Shown here in pieces: positions 26,301 through 34,599 of a stretch of 34,599 bases of DNA. The position numbers and the translations under genes were made by a program. This stretch comes from Candidatus Thalassarchaeum betae. Lineage in GTDB: Archaea > Thermoplasmatota > Poseidoniia > Poseidoniales > Thalassarchaeaceae. Under the pieces are notes generated by a model that was given only the letters and a program-made list of their open reading frames with translations, made no database searches and was not told the DNA's origin. Position 1 is the stretch's first letter; each line of letters opens with the position of its first letter. The stretch lies in assembly GCA_022447095.1 (NCBI GenBank), contig JAKUUP010000017.1:1-34599 (forward strand). The letters run 5' to 3'.

Positions 26301-27957
26301 CTCCCGCACCGGCGAGACCTCCTCAGCCACCGTACACCTCGACGGCACCAACACCTTCGATCCCGAGGGCGATGAGGTGAAGTTCGAGTTCTGGAGCGAC
26401 CGCGATGGACTACTGTCATCCGGTATCACCACCGACTCTGCAGTCGAGTGGATAGGCACATTGTCCAAGGGCGATCACGTCATCACGATGTATGCCAGCG
26501 ACAACCGCCCGAACCACGCAGGTATGTGGAATTCGATTTCGGTAGAAATGAGCGTTGCCAACTCCCCGCCGGTGGCGATGATTGCCAGCCCCTCAGACGG
26601 CATACTGACCGACTCGGGCGAGCTGCTGGTATTCGACGGGACCGGCTCTGGCGATTGGGATGCAGCCTGCTCTGACCTGCCTTACAACGGCAGCGGACTC
26701 GTGTGCAACCCGCTGACAGACAAGAGCACAGACCTAGTCAGCGTACTCTGGGAGAGCGACCTGATGAGCGAGCCAATGGGAAGCGGATGGGTACTCGAGA
26801 CGAGACTACCCGAGGGCGTGCACCAAGTCACACTCACCGTTGAGGACGGCTCGGGTGACTCCGACGTCGCTGAGATCATGGTCAGAGTCAACGAGGCGGC
26901 ACCGGTACTGATTCTCGACTCGCCTATGCCCGACATCGAGGTCTACTCCAATCTCCCAGTGCTGTTCGACTTCCGGCGCTCGTTCGACCCGGACGGCGAC
27001 GACTTCACCGTTAGCGTGTACTCCGACTTGCTCGGTACGCCAATCCTTGAGGACAAGACGACCGAGTACTGGTACAACGACTACCTGCCAGCGGGAGTTC
27101 ACACACTGCGTTTCGAACTCACCGACACCAACGGGATGCAGCGGACCCACTCGCAGAGCCTCACGGTGCTCGAAACCGGTCCTATGGCAGTCATCACGGG
27201 GCTATCTGAGGGCCAGTACATCCCACCGGGCGAGCCAGTTGTGCTCAACGCCTCCGGTTCCTACGACTATGACGATGACATCGTACTCTACCAATGGAGC
27301 CTGCGCGACGGCACGCTACTGAGCGACAAGATAGTCTACTCGGCCAACTTCTCGCCCGGACCAATTCAGGTTAATCTGCTGGTCAAGGACTCCCGAGGAG
27401 CAGCATCCTCAATGTCGATCAATCTCACCATCGGCTCCAGCTCACCGCAACTATTTGAGTTCGAGGTCTCTCCCTCAAGCATCGATCTCGAGGAGCCAAC
27501 GACGGTCTTCCTAACCGTCAGGCTGGTTGACCTCGACGGCACTACCAACATAGTGGGGGGCGAGCTTCGCGCTGGAGGCGTATCGCAGTCACTGGAGTTC
27601 CGCGACGACGGCATGGAGGGCGATTTGTTCGCAGGTGACGATATCTGGTCGTACAGGTCCGTCTGGACGCTCACCGGCAGTAGCGCTAGGGTCGAGGTGT
27701 GGGCTATGGACGGCGACATGGTTAGCCCCGGGTTGATTGAGATCATACCAATAGAGTCGCCTGAGGACACTGGCCTGTTCGACTGGCTTCTGGGCAGCGG
27801 TCTACCATTCCTCATCGTAGCACTCACGATCGCGATTATGGCCGGAATCGCCTACACGAGTAACCGTAGGAGGCAGATATCGAAAGATCTTGAGATGATA
27901 GAGTCCTGGTCGGGTTTCGACCCTCGCGAGCTCGATGACGAGTTCGATCAGTCCTGA
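23308..27957 (+). CDS. Giant surface protein: signal peptide, beta-helix region, PKD-like repeats, C-terminal anchor
   Basis: The predicted start at 23308 (GGAG nine bases before) gives 1549 residues. The frame is open upstream to 22840, but that part is antisense to the RAM genes and lacks a signal sequence. A signal peptide covers about 1-32 (RRR followed by LILLLLVSAAPLVPVATGA). Residues about 40-600 have repeated strands such as GVTIYGSDPILNDLTVINA and ASPRINDLVIDGGG, typical of a right-handed parallel beta-helix. From about 782, six PKD/Ig-like units begin near 782, 886, 988, 1085, 1195 and 1289, with the N-x-P-P-x opening and F-D-P-D/E-G-D motifs. Another beta domain follows near 1378. 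A membrane helix (about 1493-1515) and short tail end it. It is probably a cell-wall, adhesion or glycan-binding protein. Confidence 0.88.
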   Translation: MQVHVSAARRRAVALILLLLVSAAPLVPVATGAGTRTTTVWSGTVVLQDGYTVESGDILVVQSGTTIQLGDDETITVDGRLTVQGTTTAPVLLESILGNHDGIVFNSTSFGLGSKLENLTITDAEYGVTIYGSDPILNDLTVINADRVAVDLFSSASPRINDLVIDGGGQDVHAFSTSWRYGIGLSIGAYSAPIVNGVTIDGLISRGLNYWGNSGGMISNLQISNISGATLAIAAGIWVEDSRPLITDSEVTRCDNGIFVRHITSGWTTRPTFVRATVEDSQYRGIMVEQYNHSLYSNVPYNAVFEDLELRGTGGPDAKTPGLGYAAFEVNTSGVQIDEALIEDNPVVGFKAYMIGPSTILNDISLLRNGRPSTAAPLNDRAGMFMRSANWAPTINDLEVRNSSGPGVLLWKGGAQGSNWVIADNGATGVDLREFHPDFSGILSMDNDGHGVSVRDSSNVELSYVTTYRNGIGAAFPELGAGFYFDESNDVMSGGKNASCFECTSIEDQHGIVVRDSIDLQLIANEIRDPANAPALDVDNTGMDHDGNILIDDMKIELNSTDHAVKLDEVDGTVYGLDLNGDNGGLLWDANGEEPSYLVNSIIWGNQNSCFDMVDQTGLLIDNVGLACDTAASASFSSSFANFTDSWIITGYADSFEMLGDSHLRWISSAPLDTPTYTGQDNILDVMWFVEVHAVNHHLLHIPYADINLTFDLYEADYNDTLPYSGQDLFGPFIGERWTPLQGWSDVNTVHTGCDYVGVHNDSNAHALDADISVTCLLDLPNQPPFILWASPEDEGVYASGGEVLFDASESWDLDYDELSYTWTSSIDGNLLTACGASGSGNGSYLLANAADQITCLSDGTHQITLEVCDTDSHCVWETREIELVNLPPVLSVGTTPAISAWGTLYIGITANVTIHLGGTYDPEDDELNCWVETSYGSGSGQPPAGDPECPGTIIHTFPGAPNQFSATVYASDGINVPVSWTFNVELYNEIPLAVMEVSRTGETSSATVHLDGTNTFDPEGDEVKFEFWSDRDGLLSSGITTDSAVEWIGTLSKGDHVITMYASDNRPNHAGMWNSISVEMSVANSPPVAMIASPSDGILTDSGELLVFDGTGSGDWDAACSDLPYNGSGLVCNPLTDKSTDLVSVLWESDLMSEPMGSGWVLETRLPEGVHQVTLTVEDGSGDSDVAEIMVRVNEAAPVLILDSPMPDIEVYSNLPVLFDFRRSFDPDGDDFTVSVYSDLLGTPILEDKTTEYWYNDYLPAGVHTLRFELTDTNGMQRTHSQSLTVLETGPMAVITGLSEGQYIPPGEPVVLNASGSYDYDDDIVLYQWSLRDGTLLSDKIVYSANFSPGPIQVNLLVKDSRGAASSMSINLTIGSSSPQLFEFEVSPSSIDLEEPTTVFLTVRLVDLDGTTNIVGGELRAGGVSQSLEFRDDGMEGDLFAGDDIWSYRSVWTLTGSSARVEVWAMDGDMVSPGLIEIIPIESPEDTGLFDWLLGSGLPFLIVALTIAIMAGIAYTSNRRRQISKDLEMIESWSGFDPRELDDEFDQS

Positions 27958-28685
27958 TTCGGACCCCAAGGGGTAATCTGCTGAGTTAGTCCTAGTCTGT
28001 GAGTGAAGAGGAACCGTAGGTTGAGCAGACCGTCGCCCCAGGTGTTGATTACGGCTTCTCCGACGCGCTCGCGGTAGGGAACGCTGACCTCAACGGTCTT
28101 CTCCCGGCCCAGATAACGTCGAGCGCGAATCTTGAATTCTTGGGAAAGCGGCATCCCGTCGTGCTTAGGGCGAACCCGCTCGTCCTCAAATATCGACTTG
28201 CGGAAAACCCACATCCCGGTTTGCGAGTCGTGGATGCCGTACCAGTAGAGCAGTGTGGCGGTAGTCGACAGGACCCAGTTACCGAATCCGTGCATCCCGG
28301 ACATAGAGCCCGCCTCGGCTCGGCGCAGTCTGTCGCAGGTGATCCAGAGCAGATCCTCCTCGAGCAACTTGCGAACCAGTCCCGGTACCTCCTCACCGGG
28401 GTAGGTGCAGTCCGCATCCATGGTCACGATGATCTCACCGGGGGCAATTGCGAAACCGGTCTTGTAGGCGCGACCGTATCCCTTGCGCGATTCGTTGTAG
28501 ACCGTCGCACCCTCGCCCTTGGCCAGTTCGCAGGTGCGGTCTGTCGAGTTGCCGTCGACTATCAGGAAGTCCAGTTTCTCGCACCAGCCGTCATTCGGAA
28601 CCGAGCGGATGGTGTCGACGATGGCAGCCTCTTCGTTTCTAGTGGGGATGACCACGGTGACATGAACGGGAAGAGTCTCAACCAT
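27948..28685 (-). CDS. Family 2 glycosyltransferase (dolichyl-phosphate-sugar synthase-like)
   Basis: The 245-residue protein has the GT-A fold start VTVVIPTRNEEAAIVDTIRSV (9-29), the nucleotide-binding LIVDGNSTDRT (41-51) and the metal-binding DAD motif in IVTMDADCTYPG (90-92). It lacks C-terminal membrane helices, like the soluble dolichol-phosphate mannose or glucose synthases; WGDGLLNLRFLF near the end is common in that group. It probably moves a sugar to a polyprenyl phosphate for surface glycosylation. The frame extends 111 codons upstream, but the GT2 domain begins right at the ATG at 28685 and the extension is antisense to the GT4 gene. The end overlaps the surface-protein gene by ten bases. 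Confidence 0.9.
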   Translation of the reverse strand: MVETLPVHVTVVIPTRNEEAAIVDTIRSVPNDGWCEKLDFLIVDGNSTDRTCELAKGEGATVYNESRKGYGRAYKTGFAIAPGEIIVTMDADCTYPGEEVPGLVRKLLEEDLLWITCDRLRRAEAGSMSGMHGFGNWVLSTTATLLYWYGIHDSQTGMWVFRKSIFEDERVRPKHDGMPLSQEFKIRARRYLGREKTVEVSVPYRERVGEAVINTWGDGLLNLRFLFTHRLGLTQQITPWGPNQD

Positions 28686-28791
28686 GCTATCAGGGCGGGC
28701 CACCGAAGATTCTGCTTTGAATGATGCGAATACCTGCCCTGAGCCCGTTCGCTTGAAAGCCGGGCGTCTGAGCGCAAAGCAAGGGGTAGAG

Positions 28792-30033
28792 ATGCATATT
28801 GCCATGCTGTCGGCCGAATACCCGCCCCGCTGGGGCGGAATGGGGTCCACTGTGTACCACTTATCGGCTGTGCTAGCCGCGAAGGGACACCGGGTAACGG
28901 TCATCACACGCTCTGGTGGGGGCGGCCAGCCGCCACCGATAGAGGGGGTGGAGGTGCTAACGGTCGGCTGGGTCCCGATCCCCATGGCCTTCACCCGTTC
29001 GTACGGGCGTAGCGCCATGCGAGCGCTGAAGCGCCTTCATGCTCAGGATCCAGTCAGCATCGTCCACCTTCACTGCCCTATGATTTCCTGGAGCGCGAAG
29101 CAGTTCGCTCACTGCCGCGATAACATCGCCCCGGTCGTATCCTCGCTGCACGGCACGTGGCTAGGCGAGCGTGATGGTCTAGTCACCGCCTCGGAGCAGA
29201 AGGAAGCGGCGGTTTGGGCCAATCCAAACGACCTCGCAATCCTCCTGACCGCCAAGCACTACGCCGGCTACGAGCGAGCTGCCGTCAATGGCTCGAGAAT
29301 CTGCGTCTCGAACTCGCTCGCGACCAAGCGCGACTTCGAGTCCCGGTACTCACCACCACCCGACTGGGACTGCGAGGTCGTTCACTGGGGCGTAGATACC
29401 AGCATGTTCGTCCCGCTGCACCGCGACGACGAGGACGCGATGTCTGCACACGCAGCTATCCGCCACAGATATGGTTCTCAGTCGAGCGATTCAATACTGC
29501 TCCTCGCAGTCGGAAGACTTGCTGCTAGGAAGGGCTACGGCTCACTCCTGAGGGCCTTCGCTAAGGTCAGCAACTCAATCCCCGCAGCCCGTTTGGTGAT
29601 CGTCGGCAGGGGGCACCTGCGCTCGCGTTTGGAGAGCCAAGCGAGAAAACTCGGGATCGGCGATGCGGTGACCATCGAGTCGGGGATGGCGTTTGAGGAA
29701 CTCGCAGCGCTGTTCCGCTCGGCCGACTTGGTGGTGTATCCCTCGTACTATGAGGGACAGGGACTCATCCCGCTGGAGGCGATGGCTTCAGGCACACCAG
29801 TGGTGACGGTGGACCACGGGCCACTGCCCGAAATGGTTGACAACAGCGTCGGCAGTCTATTCAAAATGGGAGACATCGATTCGATGGCAGACGCCATCCT
29901 GATGGAGATGTCCGACAGGACGACTCTGCTAGAGAAGGGAGAGGCAGGTCGACGCAGGGTGCTTGAGAGATTCACCTACAATCACGATGCTGAGCGCTTC
30001 ATAGAGATATACAGAAGAGCATCTGGGAACTGA
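28792..30033 (+). CDS. Family 4 glycosyltransferase (GT-B fold)
   Basis: The 413-residue protein starts with MHIAMLSAEYPPRWGGMGSTVYHL, the usual N-terminal glycine-rich acceptor loop of GT4 enzymes. The C-terminal Rossmann half has LLLAVGRLAARKGYGSLLRAF, ARLVIVGRG and the E-x7-E motif EGQGLIPLE that binds the sugar nucleotide, followed by AMASGTPVVTVDHGPLPEMV. It is a retaining transferase; donor and acceptor cannot be told. The ATG at 28792 has AAGGGG about eight bases upstream; the open frame before it (from 28684) would overlap the divergent GT2 gene and has no GT4 features. With the GT2 gene 106 bases away it forms a divergent glycosylation pair beside a large surface protein. Confidence 0.92.
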   Translation: MHIAMLSAEYPPRWGGMGSTVYHLSAVLAAKGHRVTVITRSGGGGQPPPIEGVEVLTVGWVPIPMAFTRSYGRSAMRALKRLHAQDPVSIVHLHCPMISWSAKQFAHCRDNIAPVVSSLHGTWLGERDGLVTASEQKEAAVWANPNDLAILLTAKHYAGYERAAVNGSRICVSNSLATKRDFESRYSPPPDWDCEVVHWGVDTSMFVPLHRDDEDAMSAHAAIRHRYGSQSSDSILLLAVGRLAARKGYGSLLRAFAKVSNSIPAARLVIVGRGHLRSRLESQARKLGIGDAVTIESGMAFEELAALFRSADLVVYPSYYEGQGLIPLEAMASGTPVVTVDHGPLPEMVDNSVGSLFKMGDIDSMADAILMEMSDRTTLLEKGEAGRRRVLERFTYNHDAERFIEIYRRASGN

Positions 30034-33754: not shown

Positions 33755-33800
33755 TTCAGGCCCACGAGGATTCAAGGGGTCGAAGCAACAGGAGAAACCT

Positions 33801-34520
33801 GTGAGTCAAGAAGACGGCAGCACCGCCCAGCGCCGTGCGCTGGCGATGTCCGTGCACCTGCTCACGGCGTCCGGCGCACTCTGGGCACTCCTCGCGCTGG
33901 ACGCCATAATCGCCGGGGACTACCGGATGGCCTTCCTCTGGATGTTCGTCGCGATGTTCGTCGACTCCGTCGATGGACCGCTGGCCAGGAAGGTCGACGT
34001 CAAGCGTCACACACCGCATATCGATGGGGCCAGGCTCGACGACGTCATTGACTACATCAACTACACATTCGTCCCAATCGTCCTACTGATCCACGCCGGC
34101 TGGCTGCCCGATCCAGCCCCTCTGTGGGCTGCCTTCCCCCTCGTAGCCAGCGCCTTGGCGTTCTCCAACACCGAGTCCAAGGACACCGAAGAGGGCTTCT
34201 TCCTCGGCTTCCCCTCGTACTGGAATGTCTTCGCCTTCTACGTCGTGGTGCTGGCCACAGCCGGCAGTGAGTGGTTCGTGCTGCTGCTGATGCTGGCCTT
34301 CAGCGCCCTGAGCGTGATGCCGGTGCGCTTCGTATACCCGAACCGCTTCGACGGGATGCGCTGGTTCTTCTTCGGAGGGGGCATAGTCTGGATAGTCTCG
34401 ATGCTCTTCGCAGCGCTGCAGTACCCCGACACCCCGCTGTTGTTGGTGCAGGTCTCCCTGGTCTATCCGGCACTGTACTTCGGCCTCTCTGTGTGGCTGG
34501 ACCGGCAAACTGTTTCATAG
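33801..34520 (+). CDS. pcs: CDP-alcohol phosphatidyltransferase, phosphatidylcholine-synthase-like
   Basis: The CDP-alcohol phosphotransferase motif is present as D58-G59-x2-A62-R63-x12-G76-x3-D80-x3-D84, with an extra Asp at 55 (DSVDGPLARKVDVKRHTPHIDGARLDDVIDYINY region). The longer spacing between AR and G, the Val-Lys stretch and the following LDDVIDYINYTFVP resemble bacterial phosphatidylcholine synthase (Pcs), which joins choline to CDP-diacylglycerol. About seven hydrophobic segments span the 239 residues. In an archaeon the lipid substrate could be CDP-archaeol and the alcohol is unknown. The start is a GTG at 33801 with AGGAGA six bases upstream. It probably shares a transcript with the membrane-anchored regulator. 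Confidence 0.83.
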   Translation: MSQEDGSTAQRRALAMSVHLLTASGALWALLALDAIIAGDYRMAFLWMFVAMFVDSVDGPLARKVDVKRHTPHIDGARLDDVIDYINYTFVPIVLLIHAGWLPDPAPLWAAFPLVASALAFSNTESKDTEEGFFLGFPSYWNVFAFYVVVLATAGSEWFVLLLMLAFSALSVMPVRFVYPNRFDGMRWFFFGGGIVWIVSMLFAALQYPDTPLLLVQVSLVYPALYFGLSVWLDRQTVS

Positions 34521-34599
34521 GGTACCCTCTGATTCATCTTCTCGGCGTTGAAGAATGTCCAATCATTGAACCAAGTTACTTATGTCTAGTACACCGATG
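34521..34599 (+). other. Window-end intergenic segment, possible promoter of the next gene
   Basis: No gene is contained. A TATA-like TTACTTATG lies at 34576-34584 and the window ends on an ATG (34597-34599). The distance of about 17 bases is shorter than that seen at the other leaderless starts, so whether this ATG is used cannot be judged here. Confidence 0.25.

Follow-up and report, generated by a model that had tools for sequence, protein, structure and literature searches.

Bacterial phosphatidylcholine synthases (Pcs), such as those of Sinorhizobium meliloti, Agrobacterium, Legionella and Pseudomonas, are proteins of ~240 aa with a GFPxxWN block and a CDP-alcohol transferase signature in which AR is separated from the following G by 12 residues (x12; PMC3972451), as against x7-8 in the general CDP-alcohol transferase signature, the Asp residues of which bind metal and CDP (PMC9385802). 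Marine group II (MGII), uncultured archaea described as outnumbering all other planktonic archaea in surface seawater (PMC6461757), were reported to be without G1P dehydrogenase and to have a G3P dehydrogenase and archaeal lipid genes (PMC6461757, PMC7852524, PMC6962369) as well as PlsC homologues (PMC6461757; PMC6962369), and it was suggested from genomic work that they may make mixed bacterial/archaeal lipids (PMC6461757). Their membrane lipids were left as a question in published work (PMC6962369), with a conflicting result elsewhere (PMC7291766). In lipidomics of MGII-dominated water, neither archaeol-based nor unusual polar lipids were detected, and the phosphatidylcholine (PC) that was detected was ascribed to bacterial or eukaryotic sources in that study (PMC6962369). 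No report of Pcs in archaea was found in the main texts of openly accessible papers; automatic annotation may already name archaeal Pcs. Pcs is a known kind of enzyme, here in a new domain. Archaeal ether lipids with choline headgroups do occur in nature, archaetidylcholine having reportedly been found in the distant hyperthermophile Methanopyrus kandleri by Nishihara et al. in 2002.

The window, i.e., the whole stretch of 34,599 nucleotides that was analyzed, is the complete contig C9 of a MAG of 1.35 Mb in 70 contigs, estimated to be 98% complete. Its closest named relative is a contig of Ca. Thalassarchaeum, which belongs to marine group IIb, and records of MED-G34 and of other MGII are also near. 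A pcs-like gene was located with the following features.

33801..34520 (+), pcs-like gene: complete ORF with GTG start, 239 aa, CDP-alcohol phosphatidyltransferase of the Pcs clade
33963..34052 (+), catalytic signature D55xxD58G59xxA62R63-x12-G76xxxD80xxxD84, from regular-expression match and alignment
34206..34241 (+), GFPSYWNVFAFY block, residues 136-147, from alignments: candidate substrate loop
33763..33800 (+), conserved non-coding leader abutting the GTG start, from comparison of the genus copies
33790-33794 (+), AGGAG in the leader upstream of GTG: candidate ribosome-binding site
34521..34599 (+), downstream flank up to the contig end, homologous to two other pcs loci of the genus (L003/L004), in which it is continued by a dockerin-repeat gene

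The product is predicted to lie in the membrane and carries the CDP-alcohol transferase signature, residues 55-84 being DSVDGPLARKVDVKRHTPHIDGARLDDVID, i.e., Dx2DGx2AR-x12-Gx3Dx3D. When any spacing from 5 to 20 was allowed, the sole match in the six frames of the window was this gene, and 0 matches were obtained in 300 mononucleotide shuffles of the window. The GFPSYWNVFAFY block was invariant among 11 aligned proteins (archaeal and closest bacterial), and the GFPxxWN contained in it is present also in the Pcs of S. meliloti and Pseudomonas. The AlphaFold model (mean pLDDT 79, pTM 0.77) consisted of 8 long helices, as against the eight transmembrane segments expected of a Pcs. Its best Foldseek matches were solved CDP-alcohol transferases, as expected of superfamily membership, with the archaeal PS synthase 7POW at the top (E 8e-6) and no solved bacterial Pcs among the structure matches. 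A sequence search of solved structures with the protein gave no useful match, and its PF01066 score was near the cut-off, just under it in one search and just over it in another. Judged by signature, profiles and tree, all of which agree, the gene belongs to the Pcs clade in the broad sense.

The favored reading, to which a probability of roughly 0.6 was assigned, is that Ca. Thalassarchaeum has a Pcs-type enzyme derived from a bacterium, which would place a choline headgroup in one step on a CDP-archaeol-type lipid. From its family, the Asp pairs D55/D58 and D80/D84 would be expected to bind two divalent ions (Mg/Mn) and the CDP pyrophosphate, and D84 may act as the base on the choline hydroxyl, by analogy with D93, the base of M. 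tuberculosis PgsA1 (PMC9385802). Choline would displace CMP from the CDP-activated lipid in one step to give a choline-headgroup phospholipid. The usual donor would be of the CDP-archaeol type and made by CarS. Archaetidylcholine, or an analogue with a mixed backbone, would then be the product; its backbone may be G3P, as suggested by the report of MGII without G1P dehydrogenase. The fuller proposal is that the acquired Pcs provides the genus with archaetidylcholine, or else with a choline phospholipid of mixed ether/ester type on G3P; it is put forward tentatively, its odds being somewhat less than even.

The donor was considered from the lipid genes of the genus. CarS was detected in 12 of the 13 genus genomes (host copy on C18, L095:3435-4115). 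The CTP_transf_1 match was the CarS gene itself and a separate CdsA was not found in the genus genomes, so that CarS is the sole CDP-lipid synthase detected, which points to a donor probably of the CDP-archaeol type; in this the enzyme would differ from bacterial Pcs, the presumed donor lipid coming from CarS and not from CdsA. GGGPS (PF01884), the first ether-bond enzyme, was found in 8/13 genomes and was not found in the MAG of the window, as a result of either an assembly gap or real absence. Acyltransferase genes (PF01553) were present in all 13 genomes, and some of them are PlsC-like (~95 bits); in the host, the match is one of 36-39 bits inside a 493-aa protein (G000:C5, L096:973-2454 (-)). 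Frames of ~500 aa corresponding to this protein, with its weak PlsC-like domain, occur throughout the genus, and from its sequence an ester-lipid enzyme is possible.

The main rival to archaetidylcholine as the product is PC proper, which Pcs would make from a CDP-diacylglycerol-type donor in membranes that are wholly or partly of the bacterial type. This agrees with the acyltransferases of all 13 genomes, with the reported combination of G3P dehydrogenase and PlsC homologues without G1P dehydrogenase in MGII (PMC6461757, PMC6962369), and with the PC among the lipids of MGII-rich waters (PMC6962369), the lipidomics leaning towards ordinary PC as the product, or else towards dominance of other MGII genera there. 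It is opposed by CarS, an archaeal ether-lipid enzyme, as the only CDP-lipid synthase detected and by the low score of the acyltransferase match in the window's own genome, and it was rated as unlikely, yet as the alternative that survives best. If choline is the acceptor, an archaeol-type donor is the better supported of the two by the gene content, and was considered reasonably probable.

The acceptor was judged by kinship with bacterial relatives. In the nearest of these, encoded at the Phycisphaerae locus L009 (51% identity), a CHT1-type choline transporter lies immediately upstream of pcs, its frame overlapping the longest pcs frame; it scored 583 bits to 9rws and 487 bits to human CHT1, and the next SSF/SGLT score was 58. 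At L060, which is on a different Pcs branch, pcs is directly preceded, on its own strand, by a transporter 54% identical to that of L009. Both were obtained in the Planctomycetota search.

L009:6467-7990 (+), bacterial CHT1-type choline transporter (SLC5A7 relative), adjoining pcs
L060:2297-3661 (-), bacterial CHT1-type choline transporter (SLC5A7 relative), adjoining pcs

From this gene order, the transporter and pcs likely form a pair for choline uptake and lipid synthesis at both loci. Since pcs of L009 stands beside a CHT1-type choline transporter, choline is favored over other alcohols, and by this analogy choline is quite probably also the acceptor of the archaeal enzyme; the pairing of the two genes was the strongest indication obtained of choline use in this clade. 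As a separate observation, the fragment L009:5298-5513 matches residues 1-77 of the transporter just downstream at 82% identity and represents a partial duplication.

An enzyme of the Pcs clade with a changed acceptor, using ethanolamine, methylated ethanolamines, serine or an osmolyte-type alcohol, was regarded as improbable. Choline importers of the BCCT and OpuAC types were found in none of the 13 genus genomes, no choline-related gene was seen beside the archaeal pcs copies, and within the archaeal pcs loci compared there was no CHT1-type transporter such as that of L009. The signature alone does not reveal acceptor specificity, and the scores are far below the curated Pcs equivalog cut-offs: all five NCBIfam Pcs models (NF045884-NF045888) matched the protein over nearly its full length at 128-151 bits, under cut-offs of 300-440 bits, which places it outside those five subfamilies. 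The bacterial clade members L009, L010 and L012 were likewise under these cut-offs, which therefore mark off subfamilies. A changed acceptor is opposed by the coupling of the sister bacterial protein to a choline transporter and by the retention of the signature together with the GFPSYWN block; a PS synthase heads the matches to solved structures, yet the sequence profiles reject the PS synthase family.

The preliminary description of this DNA had held that the AR-x12-G spacing resembles bacterial Pcs rather than the usual archaeal enzymes with x8, and both the profile scores and the spacing in the reference set agree with this. The competing profiles scored 41 (arch_ser_synth, NF038087; cut-off 240), 37 (pssA), 29 (TIGR04217; cut-off 200) and 27 bits (archin_ph_syn, NF040950; cut-off 180), so the Pcs models were ~110 bits above the archaetidylserine synthase (AS) model. 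The spacing was x12 in 7/7 full-length Thalassarchaeum proteins and in every bacterial Pcs matched by the regular expression, and x8 in every matched AS-like protein, in the archaetidylinositol phosphate synthase (AIPS)-like protein of the host and in E. coli PgsA. The AS/PssA enzymes (NF038087, TIGR00473; 7POW) share the superfamily and the general fold but differ in spacing, in score and in forming a separate clade. The host AIPS-like enzyme (G000:C70, L001:1423-2103) is of the same superfamily but has x8; its best score was 96 bits to archin_ph_syn, with no match to a Pcs model at the limit used. An ordinary AS or AIPS with altered motif spacing is thus very improbable: the PF01066 superfamily in common and the archaeal PS synthase at the top of the Foldseek matches are outweighed by the profiles, by the tree described below and by the AIPS-like enzyme that the host already has, and no decarboxylase gene was seen beside pcs, as against an upstream neighbor resembling PS decarboxylase in an AS-like control.

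The main tree was built from 45 proteins with AS, AIPS and Pgs outgroups, and a second tree with AS-like outgroups alone. In the 45-protein tree, the 7 full-length archaeal copies formed a single clade (support 100/98), which was grouped with 3 Planctomycetota proteins (100/99), and all Pcs were apart from AS/AIPS/Pgs (89/81). With the AS-like outgroup alone, Pcs and outgroup were split at 100/100 across a long branch, and separation of the archaeal-planctomycete set from other Pcs was again well supported. The clustering with archaetidylinositol or archaetidylserine synthases by which the preliminary description could have been overturned was hence absent. In AU tests, attachment of the archaeal Pcs nearest the AS outgroup had p values of 0.28 and 0.36 and so was retained, the outgroup branch being very long; no position of the root within Pcs is claimed. 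A single clade of archaeal and plasmid-borne proteobacterial Pcs was rejected (p 7e-7).

The nearest relatives are thus Pcs-like proteins of Planctomycetota (Phycisphaerae L009, Neorhodopirellula L012, and G485), which have x12; identity to those of L009 and L012 was 38-51%, and GFPSYWNVFAFY is identical in both. The archaeal protein differs from the plasmid-borne Pcs of named bacteria in its host and in an identity of ~33-38%. Among 390 Thermoplasmatota genomes, scores in the Pcs range were confined to Ca. Thalassarchaeum, all others giving <=41 bits, and Pcs was found in 4/294 sampled Planctomycetota, in 13/247 of the phylum of L010, and also in Proteobacteria. The divergence of the protein was ~22% within the archaea vs 49% to the nearest bacterium. 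Phage records and viral contigs gave no match to the gene. Carriage by plasmids was considered and rejected, as there were just eight plasmid matches, all proteobacterial and with <60% identity. Bacterial origin and the direction of transfer were inferred from taxonomic distribution: probably a bacterium, most likely one resembling planctomycetes, passed the gene to an ancestral lineage of Ca. Thalassarchaeum (MGIIb). The acquisition of bacterial lipid chemistry that had been suggested earlier, as one possibility beside choline-type or other alcohol headgroups on archaeal lipids, is in this way supported by profile scores, motif spacing, phylogeny and confinement to one archaeal genus together.

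Within the genus, full-length pcs was present in 7/13 genomes (the window's own, G002, G005, G006, G007, G009 and G011) and was not found in 5, which are 67-86% complete. The remaining genome, G012, has a deleted remnant in which codons ~81-233 are absent and GGCTGGA stands at each deletion end; this may be recent gene loss in one member of the genus or an assembly error. The remnant was seen as short in-frame stretches at L020:1472-1777 (-) and L024:10787-11026 (-). For every pair of archaeal copies dN/dS was 0.07-0.13, which shows purifying selection on the protein. The genus copies start to match at 33763-33766, ~38 bases before GTG, despite differing upstream genes. Two regions are occupied by pcs, either the edges of one gene block or a position beside a Na/Ca exchanger. 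In the window, L003/L004 and G012, pcs is at different edges of the block, which contains glycosyltransferase, AI-2E-type transporter, TPK-like, M29-like and HTH genes and is inverted relative to pcs in L003/L004; in L005-L008 it follows the Na/Ca exchanger, three genes from an AIPS-like gene. No transposase adjoining pcs was seen at the genus loci (window, L003, L004, L005-L008, L024). Two glycosyltransferase ORFs of the window, 27948-29018 (-) and 28684-30033 (+), overlap head-to-head by 335 bases, and both frames are open and alignable in G012; a shorter start, e.g. MHIAMLSAEYPPRW, is likelier for the second.

Genes neighboring pcs in the window also occur on Ca. Thalassarchaeum and MGII contigs. 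Bacterial contamination or a chimeric contig end in the MAG, to which the position of the gene 79 bases before the end of the contig and its bacterial kin might point, can practically be dismissed, since six other assemblies have 77-92% identical genes within MGII/Thalassarchaeum contigs, genes common to the window flank two of these six copies, and the closest bacterial protein is just 51% identical. On these sequence comparisons, the pcs-like gene is real and selected and is no contaminant.

If the favored reading of a choline headgroup on a CDP-archaeol-type lipid is true, the product would be a hybrid lipid, made by a bacterial headgroup enzyme acting on a CarS-activated archaeal core, and could be the membrane lipid still sought in some marine group II archaea. 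A genus-specific, selected Pcs narrows the search to a single headgroup and a single clade, and makes this part of the MGII membrane question directly testable. The entry of a bacterial headgroup enzyme into an archaeal membrane pathway would bear on the 'lipid divide', and the choline phospholipids of seawater need not be exclusively bacterial or eukaryotic.
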